This document shows, in pieces, positions 20,336 through 39,600 of a stretch of DNA of 64,000 nucleotides. Made by a program: the position numbers and the translations under genes. The notes under the pieces were generated by a model that saw only the letters and a program-made list of their open reading frames with translations, did no database searches and was not told where the DNA came from. The stretch is taken from positions 1-64,000 of the forward strand of contig JAFVBH010000064.1 of NCBI GenBank assembly GCA_017480115.1, given 5' to 3'. Positions within the stretch are counted from its first letter, which is position 1, and every line of letters begins with the position of its first letter. The stretch is from Clostridia bacterium. Lineage in GTDB: Bacteria; Bacillota; Clostridia; Oscillospirales; Acutalibacteraceae.

Positions 20336-20427
20336 ACAAGATTTGCTCCATTGCGCGGAAAAACATGCTATGATGCCGCTGTGCCTCGGAAAGAGGCAGA
20401 CAATTTTCATTTGGAGGATTGACGGGT

Positions 20428-21126
20428 ATGTATCATACAGCGAAACGATTTTTTGCGATTTTGCTTGCGGTCGCGGTGCTGACCGGCATGTTTGCCGTTG
20501 CCGCTTATGCAGACGCGGGCGTACAGACTTTCGGACGAACGGGCGATCTGAACGGAGACGGCATGGTAAATTCCTCAGACGCAAGATATTTATTGCGCGC
20601 TGTCGCAAGGCTGGAGTCCCTGAACGACGCGCAGCGACGAAACGCGGATATTAACAGAGATGGACGTGTGGATTCCATCGACGCGCGCCTGCTGCTGCGG
20701 ATCTCGGCGCGGCTCGTCTGTTATACGGCGAACGGGGAATTGCCTTCCGACGTGCGTCTGCTGTGGCCGGTGCAGGATGACAGCAGATATACCACCACCG
20801 AGTACGGTCAAAACGGACACGGCGGGTTGGATATTACCTGCAGCGGCGCAAGTCAGATGGATAAACAGATTGTTGCGGCTGCCGACGGCGTCGTCACCGC
20901 TGTCGCGTGGCATTGGAGCTATGGCAATTATGTCGTGATCGATCACGGCAACGGGCTGTCAACGATGTATGCCCACTGCCATAGCGTCGCCGTCGCTGTC
21001 GAGCAAACCGTCGCGCAGGGACAGCCGATCGGCATCATCGGTAATTCCGGATATGCCTTTGGCGCGCACGTCCATTTTGAGGTACATGTCAACGGCGTCA
21101 GACAAAATCCGAGGAATTATCTTTAA
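20428..21126 (+). CDS. Secreted M23 metallopeptidase with type I dockerin
   Basis: A 232-residue exported protein. A signal peptide (KRFFAILLAVAVLTGMFAVAAYA) is followed by a type I dockerin at about residues 40-98 with two calcium-loop repeats (DLNGDGMVNSSDARYLLR and DINRDGRVDSIDARLLLR), then a LytM/M23 peptidase domain. Zinc ligands are visible in HGGLD and in HVHFEV near the end. Such enzymes cut peptidoglycan cross-links. A dockerin on a cell-wall hydrolase suggests docking to a cohesin scaffold on the surface. The ATG at 20428 is chosen over the TTG at 20419 because GGAGG (20413-20417) is correctly spaced only for the ATG. The divergent LytTR operator suggests activation by that system. 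Confidence 0.9.
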   Translation: MYHTAKRFFAILLAVAVLTGMFAVAAYADAGVQTFGRTGDLNGDGMVNSSDARYLLRAVARLESLNDAQRRNADINRDGRVDSIDARLLLRISARLVCYTANGELPSDVRLLWPVQDDSRYTTTEYGQNGHGGLDITCSGASQMDKQIVAAADGVVTAVAWHWSYGNYVVIDHGNGLSTMYAHCHSVAVAVEQTVAQGQPIGIIGNSGYAFGAHVHFEVHVNGVRQNPRNYL

Positions 21127-21853: not shown

Positions 21854-23074
21854 ATGAAAAAGACAATTAATAAATCAGTTGCGTTCATTCTGTGTTTACT
21901 TATGCTGATCGGGTTCACTCCCGTTGCGTCAGCGGAGGACGAGCTGCCGAATGTGATTGATCAGGTACAATTATTCAACGATGAAGCATGGATGGCGCTT
22001 GACGAGCTACTGTACACGCTCAGCGCGCAGCTTGGTTATGAGATCATTGCCGTAGTTCCGTATATGGTGTCTCCTGCGGAAGAAAAATCGTTTGTCGATA
22101 CGTTGTATTATCAGAATGGATACGGCTTTGATGAGAATAGAAACGGCGTCGTGCTGGTCGCCAACGACAATGAAATGACATTCAAGGTTTATCCGATGGG
22201 ATATAATAATCAAGTGTTTACTGCCTCCGGGATACAATTTTTGGAATATGTGATCGCTCCGTTTCTTGATACGTCTATCGCGGACATGATCGCTCTGTTT
22301 GCGATGCTGACGGCGGATTATGTTCTGCAGGCGAAAACCGGAACGCCCTATAAGGATGATTTCCTGCCCAACGCCGCAGATTATTTTGACAGATTGATCA
22401 TAGGGTGGAATTCCGGCGTTTCAGACGATGACATCCTGCGGCTGAAACACGCGCTTTTGGAGATGCAGGAGCGGGATCAATTTGACGCTATGGCGATTTA
22501 TTTTCCATCTTTCGCTTCTATCACCCTTGCCAAGACGCTGGAGGAGTTTTATAAAACATACGGATTCGGCGTCGGTGAGTCCAAGGATGGAATCATCCTG
22601 TATTATTCCGAATGGCCGGAAGAAACGGAGCTTTATGTCCACGGTTATGGCAAGATCGCTTTTACGGAAAGCGGACAAGCTTATATCCTCAAAACTCTTC
22701 TGCCGATCCTGAAAAACAGGGAATACCTGCGGGCAACAGAGACGTATATGGCCCTGTGCAGACAATTTCTTGCGCAGGCGCGATCCGGCGATCCTTACGA
22801 CGGCGACTTCATGCCCGGCAACGAAAATCCGTCCCATTTTAAATCAGGCGCAGCATATTCTCTCGGCGATGTGAACGGCGACGGCAAAGTTAATTCCTCA
22901 GACGCAAGACAGGTATTGCGCTGTGCCGCAAAGCTGGTTGATTTTTCCGAAACGCAACGCCGACTTGCGGATATCAACGGCGACGGCAAAGTAAACTCCA
23001 TAGATGCCAGAAAGGTCTTGCGTATCGCCGCAAGGCTGGAACCGCTGCCGGATGAAAAAATTACAGTCGCTTAA
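21854..23074 (+). CDS. Secreted protein with two TPM-like domains and a type I dockerin
   Basis: A 406-residue exported protein with signal peptide (residues 1-27, ending VASAED). Two tandem units of about 140 residues follow (roughly 32-170 and 185-325). Each has the TPM-domain pattern: L.YTLSAQLGYEIIAVVP or MQERDQFDAMAIYF, then YGF.E.++GV+L, then a late YVLQAKTGTPYKDDFLP or FLAQARSGDPYDGDFMP closing segment. TPM domains occur in thylakoid TLP18.3 and bacterial YgcG and are linked to phosphatase or membrane-repair roles. The C-terminus is a dockerin with two repeats (DVNGDGKVNSSDARQVLR, DINGDGKVNSIDARKVLR). This arrangement is unfamiliar to me. GGAGGG precedes the ATG. Confidence 0.8.
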   Translation: MKKTINKSVAFILCLLMLIGFTPVASAEDELPNVIDQVQLFNDEAWMALDELLYTLSAQLGYEIIAVVPYMVSPAEEKSFVDTLYYQNGYGFDENRNGVVLVANDNEMTFKVYPMGYNNQVFTASGIQFLEYVIAPFLDTSIADMIALFAMLTADYVLQAKTGTPYKDDFLPNAADYFDRLIIGWNSGVSDDDILRLKHALLEMQERDQFDAMAIYFPSFASITLAKTLEEFYKTYGFGVGESKDGIILYYSEWPEETELYVHGYGKIAFTESGQAYILKTLLPILKNREYLRATETYMALCRQFLAQARSGDPYDGDFMPGNENPSHFKSGAAYSLGDVNGDGKVNSSDARQVLRCAAKLVDFSETQRRLADINGDGKVNSIDARKVLRIAARLEPLPDEKITVA

Positions 23075-24462: not shown

Positions 24463-25293
24463 TCACAGCGAAGCGATGATTCGTTCTTTTGCTTTCTGTA
24501 AGCCTTTCGGCGTACTGCCGAGAAGCCCGCTGCCCTTGAAAATGAAGTACGGTAATAAAACTGCCCATGCAATTATATCTGTTTTTACGACAGTCGCTTC
24601 AATGCCTGCCTGAATAATAGCTGCAATATTCAATGCGAAAAAGAACAGAAGGATCACACACAAAAGTGTCATAACGCCTGTCGGTTTCTGTTTCCTTTTT
24701 TTTGCGGCGCCGGGTCGCTTCTCTTTATTTTGTTTTGCAGGTGTTTCATCCTTTTTTCGATACCCCAAAACAAAACAGAGCATAGCGATCGCATCAAGTG
24801 TCAGGAGTATGCAACCCACGCGACAAATCTGATAAAGCAGTTCTTTCCCGCTGGCTATCGATAAAAATTCTGTATTCTGGATTTTAGTCGCGAATACATA
24901 GATGCCGAAGATAATCGCATTCAGCAGTAAGAGCACGGCGGCTGCAACGTAATATTGACGATGCGGTGCAGATGTTTTTCCCTCCAGAACTTGCAGCAGC
25001 CAAACCGTCAGCGCAATAGGCAGCAGCATAAAGGCGTAATTGATTTGAACGAAACAGCCGACGGCGGAGAAGCCCAGCAGAAACGACAAGCTTCGCCCGT
25101 TGGAGTTATCAGTCCGGCAAATATAAAGACTCAGTAGGAGTACTGCAATCATGATAGAGTCGGATAATTGGAAAAAAAAGAAATCTGAAAAATCCGGGAG
25201 TCTTGCGCCGTCTTGCAATATGGGAATTTTCGGGAGCAGCGCAAACAACGCCGTCAGATAAAGAACGCGCAGATGTTTTTTTGCTTTAGACAT
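24463..25293 (-). CDS. Polytopic membrane protein, likely glycan-related
   Basis: A 276-residue hydrophobic protein with about seven membrane spans and a short basic cytoplasmic stretch (RKKDETPAKQNKEKRPGAAKKRKQK) near residue 190. I recognise no enzyme family. The start at 25293 is chosen because GGAGGGATCACA precedes that ATG; the in-frame extension upstream has none. It is the last of four co-directional genes including a family 2 glycosyltransferase and a sugar-nucleotide-type transferase, so a role in making or flipping a lipid-linked glycan is plausible, or it may be the C-terminal partner of the larger membrane protein encoded 13 bases upstream. Confidence 0.7.
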   Translation of the reverse strand: MSKAKKHLRVLYLTALFALLPKIPILQDGARLPDFSDFFFFQLSDSIMIAVLLLSLYICRTDNSNGRSLSFLLGFSAVGCFVQINYAFMLLPIALTVWLLQVLEGKTSAPHRQYYVAAAVLLLLNAIIFGIYVFATKIQNTEFLSIASGKELLYQICRVGCILLTLDAIAMLCFVLGYRKKDETPAKQNKEKRPGAAKKRKQKPTGVMTLLCVILLFFFALNIAAIIQAGIEATVVKTDIIAWAVLLPYFIFKGSGLLGSTPKGLQKAKERIIASL

Positions 25294-25306
25294 TGTGATC
25301 CCTCCG

Positions 25307-26620
25307 TTAATATGGCGCAATCATAAGCAATGCATACGCCAGGTAATACAAAAAGAGCAAGTGAGGGTTATATTGCTTGATACGGTTTTTTACATAGGGC
25401 ATATCATTCTCTTTTGAGAGAACATACAGAAATATTGTGGAATGTACAAGAAACGCGTGCGTATACCAACGAACAACGTCGTCAGAGAACAAAAAACTAA
25501 CGAACAGCGTAAACGGAAATTGCACCATGGTTAAGAAAAAAACAAGACGCTTGAGAAAGTTTTTTTCTGTTGTTTTTATTTTATGAATCCAAAAACCGTA
25601 AAGGAAGACCAAAATAGGCAGCAGCAAAGCAGAAAGAATCAGAAATTGAATGATTCTTCCGTCCAACAGATTGTTGTCTTCCGTATAAGTGCGAATGGTG
25701 CCGATCTGATCGATCAGTGTGCGTATCGCGTTTGCGAGAAACGCAGGAAGCCTTGCGTCTAACGAAGCGGCGAATTGCTGCGTCTGTTCTGATAACCCGG
25801 ATGGAAAATCTCTGTATAGCGCATAGTTATAATACGCAAAGTAGTTTGCGTTTTCTGATAAGTACCGGCTTCGGTCTTTTATAATACTGTCGAATTCTTC
25901 CATTGTGTAAACAAGGTTGGATTGTTCATGTGTGACAAAATAAACAGAGCAGACGCCGATTGTGAGCAGCGATACGGCAAAAATTGCAAGCAGCTGTATT
26001 CTGCTTGACGTTGTTTTCGCCGCGGAGATCTCATATAGAAGTATGAGCATAAAGAAAACGATATAAGAGGGCAGCGAGCCGAAATGGACAAGAATCGAAA
26101 GTACACAGATGACCGGAACCGTAAATTTAAAATATTTGTTTTTCATTGCGGCAAGAAATACGGCGGCAAGAAAGACCCAATAGGTATCCAGCATGCCCAG
26201 TTCATAGGTAAACGCCGCGAAGGTGCAGGCGCCGGATATGTAAAACATGCAGAGTATCAGCATCGTTTTCCTTGCTTCATAATCCCGGTACGCCGTTACT
26301 TTCCCCGCGAGCGTATAAGCTAAAAAGACAAAAAACAGCAAGAGCAGCGCTGTCTCATATGCAGTTACCTGCCAGTCTATGACCTTGGGAAAAAAGAAAT
26401 TATAGATTGCGCCGGGCAGCAGCTTTGTGCAAAAGCCGAAGCTGAAGTCGACCAAATGATAAGAAATCGTAATAACATCGGCTTGCCAGATATGAAATTT
26501 GTTGACGACAATAAAATTGTAAAGTACAAGAAAGGCAAAGAAAAAAATAAAATATCTTTGCCTGCTGTAATTATGCGGAATATCCCTCGATTGAATTTTG
26601 GTTTTCTTGTTTTTGCTCAC
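25307..26620 (-). CDS. Polytopic membrane protein (GT-C- or polymerase-like)
   Basis: A 437-residue membrane protein with about ten to eleven hydrophobic spans and a larger non-membrane loop near residues 215-290 (rich in Y, N, R: YTMEEFDSIIKDRSRYLSENANYF). Size and topology fit EpsG/Wzy-type polymerases or GT-C transferases, but I see no defining motif. Translation appears to begin at GTG 26620 with AGGGAG upstream. It lies between the glycosyltransferase gene (28 bases upstream) and the smaller membrane protein, and probably belongs to one transcript. Confidence 0.72.
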   Translation of the reverse strand: MSKNKKTKIQSRDIPHNYSRQRYFIFFFAFLVLYNFIVVNKFHIWQADVITISYHLVDFSFGFCTKLLPGAIYNFFFPKVIDWQVTAYETALLLLFFVFLAYTLAGKVTAYRDYEARKTMLILCMFYISGACTFAAFTYELGMLDTYWVFLAAVFLAAMKNKYFKFTVPVICVLSILVHFGSLPSYIVFFMLILLYEISAAKTTSSRIQLLAIFAVSLLTIGVCSVYFVTHEQSNLVYTMEEFDSIIKDRSRYLSENANYFAYYNYALYRDFPSGLSEQTQQFAASLDARLPAFLANAIRTLIDQIGTIRTYTEDNNLLDGRIIQFLILSALLLPILVFLYGFWIHKIKTTEKNFLKRLVFFLTMVQFPFTLFVSFLFSDDVVRWYTHAFLVHSTIFLYVLSKENDMPYVKNRIKQYNPHLLFLYYLAYALLMIAPY

Positions 26621-26648
26621 GAACCAAGCGCTCCCTGTCTGAAAATGC

Positions 26649-27590
26649 TCAATAATTGATCCGTTTTTGCTCGACTACCAGCGGCTTTTGATCCGCACTT
26701 GCGGCGGCGGATATGACATACTCCGCGATCACTGCGTTAAAGATCATGTTGATCTCCAGCACAACAATACCGCCTCTGAGCAATAAATGCGAGGCTATGT
26801 CGGCAATGGCGTGTGCGTGTATTCGCGGAATGCATATGAAAAAAAATTCAACAAGTGAAAGAAGTATGCAGATCAAACCGAAAAGAAGAATTTTTCTCGG
26901 CAGCTTTTTTGACATATTTACAATGCCGCAGACCGCAAAATCATAATATTTGTTTAAATTGAATTTTGATTTTCCCTCTGTTCTTCGATCCTGTGTATAA
27001 TAGATGCAGTCAACCGCGCTGCCGTATTCGGCAATAATTCCCCGCAGAAACGGATTTTTATAGTTGCACTGCTTTAAAATATCGATAAAACTCTTGTCAA
27101 ATAACTCAAAATCGGTTGCATGGGGGATCAGCGACATGCCGAATACCGCATTCATGATCCAATAGAAAACAGAACGCATGAAGTACATGAATTTATTTTC
27201 CCTGCTTTTGTTTTTAATGCCCAGCACAATGGTAGCGCCGGTTTCCCAGCGTTTTATAAACTCCGGGATCAGTTCGGGCGGGTTTTGCAGATCAGCATGC
27301 AGTAAGATCGCGCAATCGCCCTTTGCTTGCTGCATTGCGTAAAAAATGTTTTTGGAATAACCGAAATTTTTACTGTAGAATACAGCTTTTACCTTTTTAT
27401 CCAACACGCACAGCGCAGTGATTTTTTCTCTGGAGCCGTCCGTAGAGCCGTCATCAAAAAATACGAGCTCATAATCATAATCGGTGATCGTTTGCATAAC
27501 AGCGGTCATCCGGCGGTACACCTCATCTAACATCGCGCGCTCATTATAGACCGGGATCACGATCGATATTGTTTTTTTCTCCCTGCACAT
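26649..27590 (-). CDS. Family 2 glycosyltransferase (polyprenyl-phosphate sugar transferase type)
   Basis: A 313-residue membrane-associated glycosyltransferase. The GT-A core opens with ISIVIPVYNE and has FFDDGSTDGS and LHADLQNPPE (nucleotide and metal binding). The later GKSKFNLNKYYDFA segment is typical of dolichol-phosphate-mannose-synthase/GtrB-like enzymes. Two C-terminal membrane helices (about residues 232-255 and 268-290) anchor it. It should move a sugar from a nucleotide donor to a polyprenyl phosphate carrier; the sugar is unknown. It sits downstream of a nucleotidyltransferase, which fits a surface-glycan pathway. Confidence 0.88.
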   Translation of the reverse strand: MCREKKTISIVIPVYNERAMLDEVYRRMTAVMQTITDYDYELVFFDDGSTDGSREKITALCVLDKKVKAVFYSKNFGYSKNIFYAMQQAKGDCAILLHADLQNPPELIPEFIKRWETGATIVLGIKNKSRENKFMYFMRSVFYWIMNAVFGMSLIPHATDFELFDKSFIDILKQCNYKNPFLRGIIAEYGSAVDCIYYTQDRRTEGKSKFNLNKYYDFAVCGIVNMSKKLPRKILLFGLICILLSLVEFFFICIPRIHAHAIADIASHLLLRGGIVVLEINMIFNAVIAEYVISAAASADQKPLVVEQKRINY

Positions 27591-27623
27591 AAACGTCCTT
27601 CTAACAAAAAAGTATTCTTTCGT

Positions 27624-28355
27624 CTATTTTTCCTGTTCCGATATGGTCTTTTGGGCATATTCAAAATCGGCGACAGTATTAATGTTGATCTCCTTATCGG
27701 CAACATAAACACAGCGCCCGGTCTTGCCGCGCTCGGTCAGCGCGTTCATGAAATCGCACAGATCGTAGGGCGCGTTTGCTGTCTCGTTGTAAATTTCCTG
27801 TAGTTCCGACAGACAGGTACGGCTAAAAATGCAAAAGCCGGTTCCCTTGAGATGATTTGTAACCGTATCCGGCTTTTCTACGCAGTGCAGCAAGTGCATT
27901 GCAGCGTCCGTTTTTACGGAATAATTGTTTTTTATGCTGTTCTTATCTGTTTCATATGTAATGCCGCAAAAGAAATCTGCTGCGCCGTTCTTCCATAATT
28001 GCCGTACTTCCCGCGTCCGGCAGCCAAGAAAAATCTCATCGCTTAGCTGTAATGCGACGTCGTCGGAGATATACGGCACTGCCTTGAAAAAGGCGTTCAT
28101 AAGACCGTAAGGGATTTCTTGTGAAACATAATCCACGGGAATATTTTTATAATTGTCGCCGACAAACTCCATAATGTCCGGCTTATACCTGCCGACAACG
28201 ATCAGGATTCTGTCAACATGCAGATGAAAAAGATTTTCCAACGAATACTCAAGAACGACCCTGTTGCTTATTTTTATAAGCGCCTTACATTGCTTGGCGT
28301 TATAACTTTCAATAAAGCGGCTTCCGTTTCCCGCGGCAAGAATAAGTCCGATCAT
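27624..28355 (-). CDS. NTP-transferase family protein (sugar- or choline-phosphate nucleotidyltransferase)
   Basis: A 243-residue cytoplasmic protein with the nucleotide-binding start GLILAAGNGSRF and the following K of AKQCKALIKI. Further family features are LLQLSDEIF-like metal-binding residues (VALQLSDEIF) near 100 and a C-terminal INTVADFEYA. It resembles LicC/RfbA-type enzymes that join CTP, UTP or GTP to a phosphorylated sugar or choline. First gene of the four-gene glycan set. A consensus promoter stands in front of it, but the ribosome site is weak. Confidence 0.82.
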   Translation of the reverse strand: MIGLILAAGNGSRFIESYNAKQCKALIKISNRVVLEYSLENLFHLHVDRILIVVGRYKPDIMEFVGDNYKNIPVDYVSQEIPYGLMNAFFKAVPYISDDVALQLSDEIFLGCRTREVRQLWKNGAADFFCGITYETDKNSIKNNYSVKTDAAMHLLHCVEKPDTVTNHLKGTGFCIFSRTCLSELQEIYNETANAPYDLCDFMNALTERGKTGRCVYVADKEININTVADFEYAQKTISEQEK

Positions 28356-28383
28356 AATAATGTCCCAAAATAAATTTTATTTT

Positions 28384-28412
28384 ATTATATCCCAGAATTT
28401 GCGGCGTGTCAA
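28384..28412 (-). promoter_or_regulatory. Consensus promoter of the glycan gene set
   Basis: TTGACA (28407-28412) and TATAAT (28384-28389) on the minus strand with a 17-base spacer: a perfect sigma-A consensus, the strongest in the window. It drives the nucleotidyltransferase and the three genes behind it. Confidence 0.85.
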
Positions 28413-28435
28413 TTCTTCCGACATGCAAAAAAGTG

Positions 28436-28464
28436 TTGATAAATTTTTTTTGTCATGCTAAGAT
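28436..28464 (+). promoter_or_regulatory. Promoter of the amidohydrolase gene
   Basis: TTGATA (28436-28441) and TAAGAT (28459-28464) with a 17-base spacer, 29 bases before the ATG at 28493. It is divergent from the glycan promoter. Confidence 0.65.
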
Positions 28465-28492
28465 ATTTTGGGAAGAGATTGGAGGCGCCGCA

Positions 28493-29773
28493 ATGAAAAC
28501 GCTTTTTGCAAACGGTTACGTTTTGATAAAAGAAAATGACGGTTTTACAGTGACGGATCATGCCTATTTGGGCGTTGAGAATGATCGGATATGCTTTCTT
28601 TCAACGCAAGCGCCGACAGAGCCCTTTGATTCTGTTATTGATATGCGCGGCAAGCTCTTGATGCCCGGCTTATATAACTGTCATACCCATAGCGCGATGG
28701 TGTTGTTTCGAGGGATCGGCAGCGATCTGCCGTTGGATCGGTGGCTGTATGAAAAAATCTTCCCGTTGGAACAAAAATTAAACTATGAAGCTGTTCTTGC
28801 CGGCTCCTATTTGGCGATCATGGAAATGCTTGCCTGTGGCACGGTCAGCTTTTCGGATATGTATTTTTTCCCGGAAGCAACGGCAGAAGCTGTGCTTCAT
28901 GCCGGTATAAAAGCGAATCTGACAAGGCATATACAATCCGAAAAAAATATCTTTGATCGGCAGGGAATACAAGCGTCGCTCGATTTTTACGAGCGGTACG
29001 ATCATGCGGGAAACGGACGTATTTTTGTTGATTTCTCCCTCCATTCCGAATATGCCTGTGCGGAGCAAACCGCCAGGGAATACAGCAGGCTATGTTACGA
29101 AAAAGGCGGGCGTATGCATATTCACCTCGCGGAAACGACGCGGGAATACGAGGATTGCATACGGCGAAACGGAAAATCTCCGGTGGCTTGGTTTTATGAT
29201 TGCGGCACGTTTGCGTCAAAAACCGCCGCGGCGCACTGTGTTGCCTTAGACGAAAACGATATTCGGATTTTAAAAGAAAATCAGGTAAGCGTTGTGCATA
29301 ACCCGAGCAGCAATTTGAAATTGGGCAGCGGATTTGCGAAGATTCCGGAGATGATCGATCAAGGCGTCACCGTTGCGCTTGGAACCGACGGCGCCGCCAG
29401 TAATAATAACCTGAATATGTTTGAGGAAATGCATTTGGCGGCAATCATTCATAACGGCAGGCAGCAAAACTCCATGGTTATGAATGCCGATACTGTTTTG
29501 AATATGGCAACAGGGATCGGCGCGCGGTTGCAGGGCCGGCAGGATTGCGGAGAATTGAAAGTCGGCAACAAAGCGGATATTATCGCTATTGATCTTTCGG
29601 CGCCGCATCTGTGCCCACGGAATGATTTGAAATCCCTGCTTGTTTATTCGGCGCAGGCAAGCGATGTTTGTATGGTGATGGTTGACGGCAAACTCTTGTA
29701 TCGCAATGGAGAATTCCTGACGATTGATCGGGAAAGGGTTTTATATAATATCGAAAAAACAAGAATCAGATAA
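28493..29773 (+). CDS. Amidohydrolase, SAH/MTA deaminase-like
   Basis: A 426-residue metal-dependent hydrolase of the ATZ/TRZ group that includes S-adenosylhomocysteine and methylthioadenosine deaminases. Metal and catalytic residues are in order: HTHSAM near 64, a glutamate-containing HLAETTREYE near 208, HCVALDE near 247 and GTDGAASNNNLNMFEE near 300. The terminal KVGNKADIIAIDL belongs to the small beta domain. Length and the NLDMFEEMHLA-like block fit MtaD. The likely reaction is hydrolytic deamination of a nucleoside or related base; exact substrate is unproven. GGAGG precedes the chosen ATG by seven bases, and the upstream in-frame extension carries no ribosome site. Confidence 0.87.
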   Translation: MKTLFANGYVLIKENDGFTVTDHAYLGVENDRICFLSTQAPTEPFDSVIDMRGKLLMPGLYNCHTHSAMVLFRGIGSDLPLDRWLYEKIFPLEQKLNYEAVLAGSYLAIMEMLACGTVSFSDMYFFPEATAEAVLHAGIKANLTRHIQSEKNIFDRQGIQASLDFYERYDHAGNGRIFVDFSLHSEYACAEQTAREYSRLCYEKGGRMHIHLAETTREYEDCIRRNGKSPVAWFYDCGTFASKTAAAHCVALDENDIRILKENQVSVVHNPSSNLKLGSGFAKIPEMIDQGVTVALGTDGAASNNNLNMFEEMHLAAIIHNGRQQNSMVMNADTVLNMATGIGARLQGRQDCGELKVGNKADIIAIDLSAPHLCPRNDLKSLLVYSAQASDVCMVMVDGKLLYRNGEFLTIDRERVLYNIEKTRIR

Positions 29774-34883: not shown

Positions 34884-34926
34884 AAAAGACAATATAGCCT
34901 TGTGCGGGTTATATTGTCTTTTTTTA
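34884..34926 (+). terminator. Terminator after the ABC permease gene
   Basis: A 10-bp stem (AGACAATATA/TATATTGTCT) preceded by AAA and followed by seven T, 42 bases past the stop codon. Confidence 0.88.
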
Positions 34927-35087
34927 ATCGTCAATTTCCGTGGAATTTTATTTTTTTCGTTTTTTTTGTATTATTTTTCGACAGTTTTGTATGCGCGCTT
35001 GATTTTACAGCTTTTCCTGTGATAAATTAGCGTAAATTATGCATGAATGAACCATGTATTAATAGCTTAGAGAAAGGATGCGCTGAT

Positions 35088-35924
35088 ATGGGCAAAAACA
35101 AATCTGTGCAAAAAGTGCTGTATAAGCAAAAAACAAAAATTAAGCTGAAAGTAAAGAGACCGAGAGCATCTCTAAGTTTATGTTCAAAGCTGAAGCTGAG
35201 GTGCCGAGGAAAAAGAGACGGGAAGAATCAGGTCCCGTATATGATCGGCAATGTTTGGCTGTCGCCGACGATCCAGGCGGAGGGCAAAAAAGTAACGGAA
35301 CTGATTTCCAATGTCTATACGTACTTTAACAAAAAGAATTGTGATATTTTTGTTCAATTTGAGACGGCGATTTCCGCGTTTGAAGAACGGGCGATTGAAA
35401 TTGAAACCTTGTACGATTTCCTTAAGGACAGGATAAACGCTTATGACGGTCCGATATATACGGCGTCAGAGCAAAAAAACCTGCAGCCGCAGGAATTAAA
35501 CGATATGCTGAATGCCAAAAGAGAGAGCGAAGAGAATGCGGAGAATATTGGTATTCGTATCCGGCGGTTCCGGGAATATCAGGCGCCGGTCGAGGAGTTG
35601 AGAAAAAGATATTACAACGCCAAAGCTGAGTTGGAGCGCGATTTTATAATTATTACGTCGAATTTCGAGCTGCTGGAAATGATCGACAGGCAGCTGAACG
35701 CTCTGTATCAGGAGCTTTGCTCCCGCGCCAATACGCGGCTGTCCTGGTATTGGCAGGGCGTCATCAAAAAACACCCGAAAAAAACCTCAATACAGATTGA
35801 AGTGCCTGAAGTGGAAAAGGAAGTGTTTGATACGCTGTACAGCTTGAACATTCGGGCATTGGAAGACAAACTCAACGCCGCCCGCGCGGAGCGCGACAGA
35901 GTTTTAGCGTTGTCTATTGTGTAA
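35088..35924 (+). CDS. Hypothetical coiled-coil protein, first gene of an unknown four-gene cluster
   Basis: A 278-residue protein I do not recognise. The first ~45 residues are strongly basic (KQKTKIKLKVKRPRASL, KLKLRCRGKRDGK). The rest is mostly charged helix, with likely coiled coils around 85-130 (FEERAIEIETLYDFLKD) and 145-215 (ESEENAENIGIRIRRFREY, EELRKRYYNAKAELERDF). No signal peptide, membrane span or catalytic motif is visible. The ATG at 35088 has AAAGGA nine bases upstream and is preferred over 35043. Base composition here is noticeably richer in A/T than the flanking ABC and redox genes. Closely followed by three more genes on the same strand. Confidence 0.65.
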   Translation: MGKNKSVQKVLYKQKTKIKLKVKRPRASLSLCSKLKLRCRGKRDGKNQVPYMIGNVWLSPTIQAEGKKVTELISNVYTYFNKKNCDIFVQFETAISAFEERAIEIETLYDFLKDRINAYDGPIYTASEQKNLQPQELNDMLNAKRESEENAENIGIRIRRFREYQAPVEELRKRYYNAKAELERDFIIITSNFELLEMIDRQLNALYQELCSRANTRLSWYWQGVIKKHPKKTSIQIEVPEVEKEVFDTLYSLNIRALEDKLNAARAERDRVLALSIV

Positions 35925-35937
35925 AGGAGGAGCGCAT

Positions 35938-36357
35938 ATGGCACATTATATTGGAAAAAAGCGCAGGAAGTACAAACGCGAGTACTTAAACAGAATGTCG
36001 AGGATCCCTTTCAACAGCGAGGCGGTGGAACCTTATACGATCAAGCCTTCGCCGCTGTCGCTGGAAACCGATCTGCTGAATATGCTGTATAAAATATTCA
36101 CCGCCAGCCCCGACAGCGTTGACGGGCAGAACGGGAATATGTTTGACGCATATATTGACCGCTGGAAAGCGTTGGCACAATCCGATTTATCGGTGCAACA
36201 AGTTGATCACGAAAACAAGATCGCTGATCTTGTAAAAGTCAGATATGCGATCAGAGCAAACGCCGTTGACTGGGTGCAGCGAGATGAAGAAACACTGCAA
36301 GATATTAATTCAAAACTGGCTGAAACCTTGCAAGAATATAAAAACTTTAAGATTTAA
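35938..36357 (+). CDS. Hypothetical protein, second gene of the unknown cluster
   Basis: A 139-residue protein without recognised family. The start is basic (GKKRRKYKREYLNRMSR), followed by a proline-containing linker and a helical C-terminal two thirds. AAAGGAGG precedes the ATG and lies across the end of the previous gene, 13 bases away, so co-translation is expected. The basic N-terminus matches that of the protein before it, hinting that both bind the same partner (membrane surface, nucleic acid or each other). Function unknown. Confidence 0.62.
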   Translation: MAHYIGKKRRKYKREYLNRMSRIPFNSEAVEPYTIKPSPLSLETDLLNMLYKIFTASPDSVDGQNGNMFDAYIDRWKALAQSDLSVQQVDHENKIADLVKVRYAIRANAVDWVQRDEETLQDINSKLAETLQEYKNFKI

Positions 36358-36376
36358 CACGAAAGGGTGACGTTTT

Positions 36377-37303
36377 ATGGCAGCCTCCGGCTCGAACTTG
36401 AATGTCGGTATCGACGAAAATAAAGTCTCCGCAGAATTAGATGAAAATGGGGAGCTGACTTATTTTCAAGTAAAAAGTCAAAGATTCAATACGAAATACA
36501 AGAAAGAAGAAGAAAAAAGGATTCGAGATAAAAAGAAATTCAATATAACAGGAATCCCGCAATTGGGTGTCGACGCTCCGCATCCTTATGATCGGGGCGA
36601 ACTGATCGATAAAGAGTTTTCGACAAAACCGCTGTTGCGTCGGGGATGGTTTTCTCTTTTGGTAACGCTGGGCGCTGTTATTTTGGACACAATTTGTTAT
36701 CTGCAAATATTTGAAGGATTCACAACAGACACAGATGTCGATGTAAATGTGGCAACCACCTTGCTTGCCGCTGTTGCCGCCGCATTTTCTATTGATGTTT
36801 TGCCCGCGTTTTTCGCTCAGATTTTACACAAAATCGTGAGAGATAAAAAACGTGTGTTAAAGAATTTTTTTATCATAAGTCTGGTGTTCGTAATTTTATT
36901 TGTTATCGTGCTGTTTTTGGCACGATCCAACTTTTTTTCAACGCGCTTCCCCCGGCTTTTGGCAAACGATCTTATTTTGGTCCAAGCTTTGATCCCGATC
37001 GCGACAACGCTGGTCTGCTTTATTGTTAATTTCCTGTCTTATGATCCGTATTTCAAAGAGTTGAAAATCCTCCGAAAAGTGAAGCTTGCAAAAGAAGAGG
37101 ATCTGAATGAGCTGCATGCGGTGATTCAGGAAATTGACCGGGATGCCGATTATGCAGACAGGCTGGCGTCGCTTGATCAGAACCTATATAATTCCACGAG
37201 CGCCCGAATCGATGCCATTGGCGAGCATTACAAAGCTTTTGTCAGAACTTCGCTGATCCCGCAAATGCATTCGCCTGCGGATACGTCCGACCTATCGGTA
37301 TAA
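36377..37303 (+). CDS. Membrane protein, third gene of the unknown cluster
   Basis: A 308-residue protein with ~90 charged cytoplasmic residues, then four membrane spans (about 92-112, 126-148, 163-184 and 199-219) and a charged helical C-terminal tail of ~85 residues (KELKILRKVKLAKEEDLNELHAVIQEIDRDADYADRL contains the coiled part). The arrangement (helical tails facing the cytoplasm) would allow contact with the two coiled-coil proteins encoded before it. There is no transporter or enzyme motif I recognise. It is 19 bases after the second gene with AAAGGGTGA upstream. Confidence 0.65.
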   Translation: MAASGSNLNVGIDENKVSAELDENGELTYFQVKSQRFNTKYKKEEEKRIRDKKKFNITGIPQLGVDAPHPYDRGELIDKEFSTKPLLRRGWFSLLVTLGAVILDTICYLQIFEGFTTDTDVDVNVATTLLAAVAAAFSIDVLPAFFAQILHKIVRDKKRVLKNFFIISLVFVILFVIVLFLARSNFFSTRFPRLLANDLILVQALIPIATTLVCFIVNFLSYDPYFKELKILRKVKLAKEEDLNELHAVIQEIDRDADYADRLASLDQNLYNSTSARIDAIGEHYKAFVRTSLIPQMHSPADTSDLSV

Positions 37304-37360
37304 CAGAGTCGCTCGATCAAATTTGTACGCATTATGATGGATAAAAACAGAGGTGACTGA

Positions 37361-38668
37361 ATGATGTGCAAAAAAATAAAAGCGGTAGGCGCAGTTGCGC
37401 TGCTTCTGCTGCTGATTTCTATTGTATTTACAGCGTGTACGGGGGAAACGAAGCCGCCGAAGCCAACAGAACCCAGCGAATACAGTACTGCCGTTACAGA
37501 AAGCGAAAGTACGTCGGCGACAAGTGCGACGGTTGGCGCGGATGGCATTATATCTACGTGTTTTTTAATTGGAAATACAAGAAATGTGCAATCGCCGAAT
37601 CAATCCTTGATTTCGGAGCAGCTTTGGGCGCTTTCCGAAAATAAAGAAGCGTTCAGCGTTGTCGTTTTAGACGGAAAGCCGGACGCCAGCAGCTATTCTG
37701 CCGATGTAAAGCTGCCGTTTCGGTTCTTCGGCAAAAGTGCGAATGATCAAGCCGTTATCGCAAAGCTCACAAAAAATATTTTGAACGTGATGCCCAAGGA
37801 AGATGAAATAGATATTTTGAAAGGACTTGCCAGCGGCGCAAAGGCGTTTAGTAAATCCGCCGAAGAAAAAGAGCTGATCGTCTTTAGCTCCGGTATATCC
37901 ACGGAAGGCGTTTTGAATTTTGCAGAGCATCCTGACTGGATCGAAAAGAAACCGTCGGAAATTGTGGATATGCTTGATCAAACAAAAAGTTTACCCGATT
38001 TGTCCGACGTACATATTACGTGGTACGGCTTCGGTGATGTAGAAGGCGCGCAGAAAGAGTTAAGCGATTTTAATTATTATCGCTTGAAAAATATATGGAA
38101 AGCGATTTTAGAAGCAAGCGGTGTGCGTGATGCAGCGTCAGTGTTTGACGATATGTTGGCGATCGAAGATGAAAGCGCTGAGGCGCCAAAAGAATATCCG
38201 CCCGTTACACCCGTTGATTTTCCTGAAATGATCGTCATTGACGAAAAAGATATTGGCTTTGTGCGGGACTCGGCAAATTTCTCCGATGAGCAAAAAGCAA
38301 TAGACGCGTTGGAATATTATGCGCAGTGTATCAACGATATTGGGCATACGTTTTACATTGTCGGGACCACTGCTACCGCAGATACAATCGAAAACTGTTT
38401 TTTATGCAGTCAGGAACGCGCAGATGCCGTCAAAAAAATACTGTGTGAGAGCTATAATGTCCCGGAAGCGTTGCTGCAAACATATGCCTTGGGGCAAATC
38501 AATCTCGGCGGCGAGTATGCATGGCGGTATGCGGATTTGGACGGCAATAATAAATTAATCCCCGATATTGCGCAAAAAAATCGTAGGGTTATGTTAATCG
38601 ATGCGACGTCTGAAACCGGACAAAAATTTTTACAGGATTGGACATCCGGCGACATCGCAAAGAGTTAA
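37361..38668 (+). CDS. Lipoprotein with vWA-like and OmpA-like domains, fourth gene of the unknown cluster
   Basis: A 435-residue exported protein. A lipobox (IVFTAC, Cys near 26) ends the signal peptide, followed by a Thr/Ser/Pro-rich linker (to ~65). The middle (about 65-265) looks like a von Willebrand A-type fold: alternating strands such as ISTCFLIGNTRN, FSVVVLDGKPD, ELIVFSSGIST and VHITWYGFGDV. The end (about 300-425) looks like an OmpA/MotB peptidoglycan-binding domain: a paired FYIVGTTATAD strand, the helix CSQERADAVKKIL and the closing AQKNRRVMLID. OmpA-like lipoproteins are uncommon in Gram-positive bacteria. It would tie the membrane complex of the cluster to the wall. Confidence 0.72.
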   Translation: MMCKKIKAVGAVALLLLLISIVFTACTGETKPPKPTEPSEYSTAVTESESTSATSATVGADGIISTCFLIGNTRNVQSPNQSLISEQLWALSENKEAFSVVVLDGKPDASSYSADVKLPFRFFGKSANDQAVIAKLTKNILNVMPKEDEIDILKGLASGAKAFSKSAEEKELIVFSSGISTEGVLNFAEHPDWIEKKPSEIVDMLDQTKSLPDLSDVHITWYGFGDVEGAQKELSDFNYYRLKNIWKAILEASGVRDAASVFDDMLAIEDESAEAPKEYPPVTPVDFPEMIVIDEKDIGFVRDSANFSDEQKAIDALEYYAQCINDIGHTFYIVGTTATADTIENCFLCSQERADAVKKILCESYNVPEALLQTYALGQINLGGEYAWRYADLDGNNKLIPDIAQKNRRVMLIDATSETGQKFLQDWTSGDIAKS

Positions 38669-38672
38669 AAAT

Positions 38673-38717
38673 AAAAGCCAACTGAGCAACCGACAGCGGT
38701 TATCAGTTGGCTTTTTT
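38673..38717 (+). terminator. Terminator of the unknown four-gene cluster
   Basis: A 13-bp stem (AAAAGCCAACTGA against TCAGTTGGCTTTT) with a 17-base loop and a six-T tail, immediately after the lipoprotein gene. Confidence 0.88.
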
Positions 38718-38944
38718 CAATTGATTTTGAGCTATTCTTTACGAATTAATGATCGATTTGCTTCTCAATCAATGTTTGGCGACGAGAAAATTGGCCGCGA
38801 GGCAGCGATGGGATAAAAACAATGATTTGTACGGCGCGCGTGTCGTTGATTCTTACATGAACTCGGTCAAAAATGACGTCTGTTCGCCGCTTTACTTTCT
38901 TTGTGGTATTGTGAATTTATAAAACGGAAAAGGAGATTGTCATT

Positions 38945-39340
38945 ATGAAAAAAGGGTTCTTCGTAATCGGCAGATGCTATATGGCTTTGCTTACGCTGTT
39001 CTCCGGTTTGCTGTGTGTCCCGGCGGTCGGATTTATCTTTGCGTTCGTTGCGTCGGAATGTTTCGACGTGGCGCAAGCCGCGTGGATCGTCTACGGGATC
39101 GCCGCAGCTGTCGGGGGAGTACAGTTCTTTCTTTTTCGCAAACTGCCGCTGATCGACCGTTGGCTGACGGTATTGCTGCCACTTGTACTGCCGGGGATCG
39201 CCTTTGCCAACCTGTCGCTGTTGGAATCGTGCCCGATGGTGTGGCTCAGCTATGCGCTTGGCGCAATTCTCTTGGTATGCGCGGTTGCCGTGATCGTGCT
39301 ATGGAGCCGCAATTCCGTGCGGTATCTGAAAAAGAACTGA
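38945..39340 (+). CDS. Small four-span membrane protein (paralogue of 60178-60594)
   Basis: A 131-residue hydrophobic protein with four membrane segments and a basic tail (RNSVRYLKKN). It is clearly paralogous to the protein at 60178: both start MKKG-F-VI-RCY-ALITL/LLTL and share the C-terminal LW-RN---LK. Their upstream regions are also alike: CAAAAATGACGT and a TATTGT/TATACT -10 at equal distance. Function unknown. AAAAGGAGATTGTC precedes the ATG. Its downstream side carries a degenerate copy of a 33-base element found before two other genes. Confidence 0.7.
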   Translation: MKKGFFVIGRCYMALLTLFSGLLCVPAVGFIFAFVASECFDVAQAAWIVYGIAAAVGGVQFFLFRKLPLIDRWLTVLLPLVLPGIAFANLSLLESCPMVWLSYALGAILLVCAVAVIVLWSRNSVRYLKKN

Positions 39341-39600
39341 CACGTATTTTTACAATTTGATGCCATGCCGTTGATTACTTGATAATGCAGAACATGCAGC
39401 GCGCGAAACAGTTTGTGTGCAGCATGTTTTTATGGGAAGCTTCTTCGTTGCCTGTGAAAAAATTAACGCCCGCCGCTGCCCAAAGGCAGCGGCGATGGCG
39501 TAATCAAAGGCTTACAGCTTTGCCGCCGAAGCCGCGTTCTTGCAATGCGACTTGTCTGCCCGACAAGTCTGTTTCAGGATGAATACCGCGTATACGATGC
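39341..39600. repeat. Intergenic repeat-bearing region
   Basis: No gene is visible. 39353-39388 is a decayed copy of the promoter element found at 53963 and 60606. 39445-39475 resembles 24364-24395 (ending TTAACGCCCGCCG). A perfect 10-bp GC hairpin (CGCCGCTGCC/GGCAGCGGCG) follows at 39468-39491. On the minus strand this region lies just past the stop of the large Fe-S flavoprotein gene, and the GC hairpin may help end that operon. Confidence 0.5.

Follow-up and report, generated by a model that had tools for sequence, protein, structure and literature searches.

A co-conserved four-gene set of Bacillota ending in a vWA/OmpA-like lipoprotein, possibly encoding a mobile envelope-spanning sensor-relay complex

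What is the function of four closely ordered genes that resemble no described system, and why should a bacterium with a single membrane carry among them a lipoprotein with an OmpA-like domain? The question is raised by a 64,000-nucleotide stretch of contig JAFVBH010000064.1 of a Clostridia bacterium (the window), in which a sequence-only reading had picked out four closely ordered genes as a membrane complex of unfamiliar type. The genes, named A to D here, are same-strand ORFs at window positions 35088-38668, flanked by two strong terminators and separated by 13 nt (A-B), 19 nt (B-C) and 57 nt (C-D), which agrees with the proposed close order; in relatives the genes often overlap. The main features are as follows (terminator z scores compare the fold energy with that of shuffled sequences).

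34884..34922, + strand: left-border terminator hairpin, belonging to the upstream FtsX-type ABC gene (RNA fold -20.1 kcal/mol, z -7.0)
35088..35924, + strand: gene A, ORF with Shine-Dalgarno sequence; A homologues in order at 12 other Bacillota loci
35938..36357, + strand: gene B, ORF for a 139-aa basic, helical cytoplasmic protein
36377..37303, + strand: gene C, 308-aa protein with four transmembrane (TM) helices and a long C-terminal helix
37361..38668, + strand: gene D, 435-aa lipoprotein with putative degenerate vWA and OmpA domains
37436..37438, + strand: lipobox Cys26 of D (FTAC), a Cys in 12 of 13 Bacillota members and in four actinobacterial homologues
37544..38140, + strand: putative degenerate vWA domain of D, about residues 62-260, from alignment to a Streptomyces homologue
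38258..38602, + strand: OmpA-like domain of D, residues 300-414, from Pfam, PDB profile and Foldseek
38673..38715, + strand: operon terminator hairpin (RNA fold -25.8 kcal/mol over the 66-nt stretch 38660-38725, z -7.0)

Ribosome-binding sites are visible before each gene: AGAAAGGA before A, AAAGGAGG before B, GAAAGGG before C and AGAGGTGA before D. With an alternative start, the ATG at 35043, A would be 15 residues longer. Sigma-70 promoter matches are no commoner than in shuffled sequence, and the window holds no Rfam family. The GC content of the four genes is 0.43-0.45 (44% overall), against 0.53 +/- 0.04 in the 47 other ORFs of the window, i.e., 2.0 to 2.6 standard deviations low, and the A/T-richness from which transfer had been proposed is thus confirmed. 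Composition alone is nevertheless weak evidence of transfer, because the region at 24.4-29.8 kb is also AT-rich; this second stretch (24463-29773) carries glycosyltransferase, nucleotidyltransferase and membrane genes. The proposal of transfer finds its support in the C and D trees and in plasmid-borne copies.

Seventeen Bacillota loci with a full or partly decayed D were found. C lies immediately 5' of D at 15 of them, the gene-neighbourhood conservation by which the sequence-only reading could be checked, and A-B-C-D is complete and in order at 13, with only about 15-30% identity; at one of these 13 (G1270) B and C are apparently fused. Since the order is co-conserved in other genomes it is not due to chance, and chance adjacency of the four genes is ruled out. 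At one of the 15 (G1128) C is cut by a contig end, and at G310 A lies past the end of the contig; the exceptions are G170, with a D that stands without A-C, and G1375, whose shortened D has lost its signal sequence. The D of G310 (L026 16366-17283) is decaying, its lipobox Cys being lost and its OmpA part removed by a stop.

Profiles made from the first sets and applied to loci outside those sets recognise A with E of 3e-13 to 4e-51, C with 1e-23 to 5e-95 and B with 2.5e-6 and 5e-18; B of G1333 was assigned by eye. The C query gave three good matches in the class sample, each with the same neighbours, and the weaker, low-scoring matches below these were rejected as chance. Further relatives were found with D profiles; L071, L072, L078 and the weaker D-profile matches are OmpA-only proteins and were not retained as family members. 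A scan of genome contigs returned only three already known loci.

The trees of C and D contain the same supported subclades, and on both of them the host families are as dispersed as they are when labels are shuffled. Because the trees agree where supported and ignore host family, the four-gene set is horizontally mobile and moves as a unit. D with its front domain occurs in 5 of 283 genomes of an even class sample, own genome included, and the C query finds no copy beyond the own genome in 60 close relatives and none in six genomes of the same genus. D is also present on plasmids of Nocardia, Rhodococcus and Streptomyces. The Nocardia plasmid has, in order, an A-like gene, a short gene in the B position, a four-TM C-like gene, an ORF of 163 aa bearing an HExxH-type motif, and D. 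On the Rhodococcus plasmids (L138, L140), D homologues lie among several large, related tetratricopeptide proteins. No match was obtained for the window D in viral contigs, for the window C in plasmids and phages, or for a C relative in viral sequences, and no D was found in phage records.

In G002, a genome of the same genus, the FtsX gene has a homologue (43% identity), downstream of which lie first an SGNH-hydrolase gene and then a counterpart of the 131-aa window ORF 38945-39340 (homologous, 27% identity). The operon thus occupies a variable site, because the G002 flanks hold the SGNH-hydrolase gene instead; no empty site proper was found. Window positions 39425-39543 contain a dispersed repeat, about 120 nt long, that has more than 20 copies of 74-88% identity across the own genome.

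Protein D combines an export signal with two domains. The hydrophobic stretch ends at the lipobox Cys (FTAC, Cys26 in the window protein) in 12 of 13 aligned Bacillota members. The OmpA domain matches PF00691 at E = 8.9e-6 in the window D, just below the curated cut-off, and in 12 of 13 family members, with a best E of 2.6e-12. The AlphaFold model (weak, mean pLDDT 61) has an alpha/beta domain followed by an OmpA fold, which Foldseek recovers with E down to 2.8e-6. The canonical OmpA wall-binding site consists of the Asp of GHTD and two Arg. In the D family Arg353 (LSxxRA) and Arg408 (NRxV) are nearly invariant, and the Asp is mostly replaced by Ala, Ser or Thr.

The front domain of D has the motifs DGxP and SGxST-G, and the MIDAS residues DxSxS and TDG are absent at the expected site in clostridial D; OmpA is the only Pfam match of the window protein, with no VWA. 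The homologue on the Streptomyces plasmid aligns over this domain (56.7 bits), its DDSAS and LTDG, which we take to be the vWA MIDAS pair, facing GNTRN and SSG of the window D. Because the Streptomyces protein keeps DxSxS/TDG at the same positions, the clostridial protein seems to carry a degenerate vWA domain, one that has lost its metal site. Direct profile comparisons with vWA gave no significant match: one D member weakly matches PF13519 (E 0.047), hhalign pairs the two late strands without significance, and its comparison of the front domain with two vWA sequences gave no informative alignment. An exported lipoprotein with vWA-like and OmpA-like domains had been predicted; lipobox and OmpA domain stand, but the vWA part holds only as a degenerate relative lacking MIDAS.

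Four TM helices make up the membrane part of protein C; TM2 and TM3 are joined by a basic cytoplasmic loop, and the C-terminal part is predicted to form a 73-residue helix (225-297). Asp104 in TM1 is invariant, Arg183 at the end of TM3 and P207..T210 in TM4 are conserved, and one position in TM2 is mostly acidic among relatives; the charged ones among these would suit a relay or the path of an ion. Neither a PDB profile search with C nor a Foldseek search with its weak AlphaFold model (mean pLDDT 55) gave a match. A MotA/ExbB domain is not matched in Pfam, PADLOC or PDB, and so poor a model would be compatible with a MotA-like fold. Protein A (278 aa) and protein B (139 aa) are basic, helical and cytoplasmic; A carries an N-terminal motif G..D.(K/R)....W.SP....E and a C-terminal RxxxYWxG. 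The earlier description of two basic helical proteins beside a four-span protein with a helical tail is thus accurate. For A, B and C of the window, no family of Pfam, NCBIfam or PADLOC scores meaningfully, and relatives of A and C have no Pfam family in common; the genes are hence neither scattered nor assignable to unrelated known families.

The neighbourhoods of the set in other genomes suggest a possible role in conflict. TIR genes are found close to 5 of 16 Bacillota loci and to the D of the Streptomyces plasmid, where a TIR protein adjoins it, vs. none in 14 control stretches taken in the same genomes, as judged with a profile built from the neighbours' own TIRs and a small control set. 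The loci are G372 (two), G253 (three), G027, G170 (three by profile) and G318 (weak); a TIR-Sel1 protein is common to G372 and G253 (43% identity). Type III CRISPR is near two loci, with Cas10 beside G1021 and a Cas10 homologue beside G1270, and AbiE and a C5 DNA methylase are encoded near G318. VirD4/TrwB-like ATPases occur near G372, G1320 and G1196; the last two loci also have a ClpP-like protease close by, and G253 has another pair of P-loop proteins, assigned by eye. G372 and G170 each encode a large protein that combines a Card1-like nuclease part with a kinase part, the latter found by Pfam in G372 and by eye in G170. In G372 (L025 15014-19252) this protein is 1412 aa long, its nuclease part is of the Card1-like endonuclease type, and its gene lies upstream of the ABCD set. 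In G1196 (L074 10939-12057), the gene immediately after D encodes a vWA protein that has TM helices and an intact DxSxS. PADLOC gave 184 profiles matched by 110 neighbours vs. 56 by 149 control proteins, a comparison in which profiles overlap and which indicates direction only.

The window itself is no defence island. Its operon has no defence genes near and stands alone among ordinary chromosomal genes, as does the G1089 copy in having no defence gene near, and G1028 has only a PP2C gene. The check for defence islands named in the sequence-only reading thus gives recurrent TIR, CRISPR and AbiE neighbours in a small sample of other genomes, but none in the window. Elsewhere in the window, exported proteins with dockerin-like repeats (20419-21126, 21854-23074) lie beside M23-peptidase-like and TPM-like domains (by eye).

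At G170, a 399-aa protein encoded in the same direction directly upstream of D has an inner TIR domain, the motif RRRRRMM, one TM helix and an outer domain, and reads as a receptor-like TIR protein paired with D in place of C. Because this protein stands where C would, D may work on the outside as partner to a signalling protein in the membrane; this single case is the best hint in that direction. The cluster around this D (L048 1988-19973) also encodes a PP2C protein, several TIR proteins, a DNA pol III alpha-like protein, a 1507-aa protein with a Card1/NERD nuclease part and a 262-aa FtsZ/tubulin-like protein.

Taken together, we propose, with a probability of roughly 45%, that A-D form a mobile sensor-relay complex that spans the envelope and is most likely of conflict type, directed against phages or rivals. 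As predicted from sequence, D would be exported and lipid-anchored to the outer face of the membrane, with the OmpA domain contacting the wall and the degenerate vWA domain serving as an outside sensor or docking face. C would relay the state of D through its TM helices (Asp104, the acidic position of TM2, Arg183) to the long cytoplasmic helix, and from there the signal may pass to A and B. Any output is conjectural because no enzyme is recognisable in A-D; it could be C itself, causing depolarisation or a leak of ions, or an effector that A and B recruit, candidates being the TIR proteins, VirD4-like ATPases and ClpP-like protease that adjoin larger versions. A more specific form of the proposal is doubtful: the set would be a surface-sensing, receptor-like immune device of single-membrane bacteria, whose wall-contacting, vWA-derived lipoprotein switches a four-TM partner with helical arms in the cytoplasm and whose inner output module can be exchanged, also for a one-span TIR receptor.

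The predicted wall-contacting lipoprotein with a TM relay, and the copies found alone among chromosomal genes (window, G1089, G1028), would equally suit a device for envelope integrity or stress without a conflict role, in which D checks wall distance or damage and C, A and B adjust growth or membrane state. Such a device appears unlikely, since the set is rare, patchy, horizontally moved, carried on plasmids and placed beside TIR and CRISPR genes, unlike a housekeeping system. A gated channel or secretion-like apparatus, with C as pore, the VirD4-like ATPases as motor and D as wall collar, could account for the ATPases at G372, G1320 and G1196, the P-loop pair at G253 and the resemblance of the D OmpA domain to T6SS TagL and Dot/Icm OmpA proteins. 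It is distinctly improbable, however, as most copies, including that of the window, have no adjoining ATPase, VirB-type parts or recognisable substrate. A Zorya-type ion-driven motor, with C like ZorA/MotA and D like ZorB/MotB, is very improbable even with a polytopic protein, a long cytoplasmic helix, an OmpA-domain partner and weak ZorB3 profile matches in 6 of 13 D members (best E 0.003), because D, as a lipoprotein, lacks a TM helix bearing the motor Asp, C has no MotA/ExbB match, and no ZorC, ZorD or ZorE lies beside the set.

The window A-D match no PADLOC defence-system profile, D relatives giving weak matches, mostly to ZorB, and no published description of the set was found in open-licence papers, in line with the earlier statement that no described system is recognised. 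A recent description could be missed by open-licence papers and the 2023 version of PADLOC. The set brings three unassigned gene families and an unusual vWA-OmpA lipoprotein into one context.

Among known systems, Zorya is similar in joining a membrane protein with a long cytoplasmic helical part to an outer OmpA-type wall-binding domain. ZorB, however, has a TM helix with the ion-path Asp D24 (PMC11890865), whereas D is a lipoprotein, and A and B occupy the place where ZorC, ZorD or ZorE would stand; membership was rejected on the lipoprotein anchor and the missing MotA match of C. The vWA-MoxR and iSTAND ternary systems, predicted conflict operons, contain vWA and OmpA-type peptidoglycan-associating domains (PMC7159879), but the present set has no MoxR ATPase or STAND NTPase, and its vWA-like domain would be extracellular, degenerate and part of the lipoprotein itself. 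Pal and YiaD share the lipid anchor and OmpA fold, but D differs in its vWA-derived domain, the lack of the canonical Asp, its fixed partners A-C and a host class without outer membrane. In TagL of T6SS and in Dot/Icm OmpA proteins, the OmpA domain ties a trans-envelope machine to the wall, as proposed for D, although most copies of the set have no secretion core genes nearby. Many of the immune systems known from bacteria sense invasion from within the cell; a unit of wall-contacting lipoprotein, membrane protein and inner helical proteins that is mobile and, in one relative, TIR-linked would make the sensing of attack at the Gram-positive surface testable.
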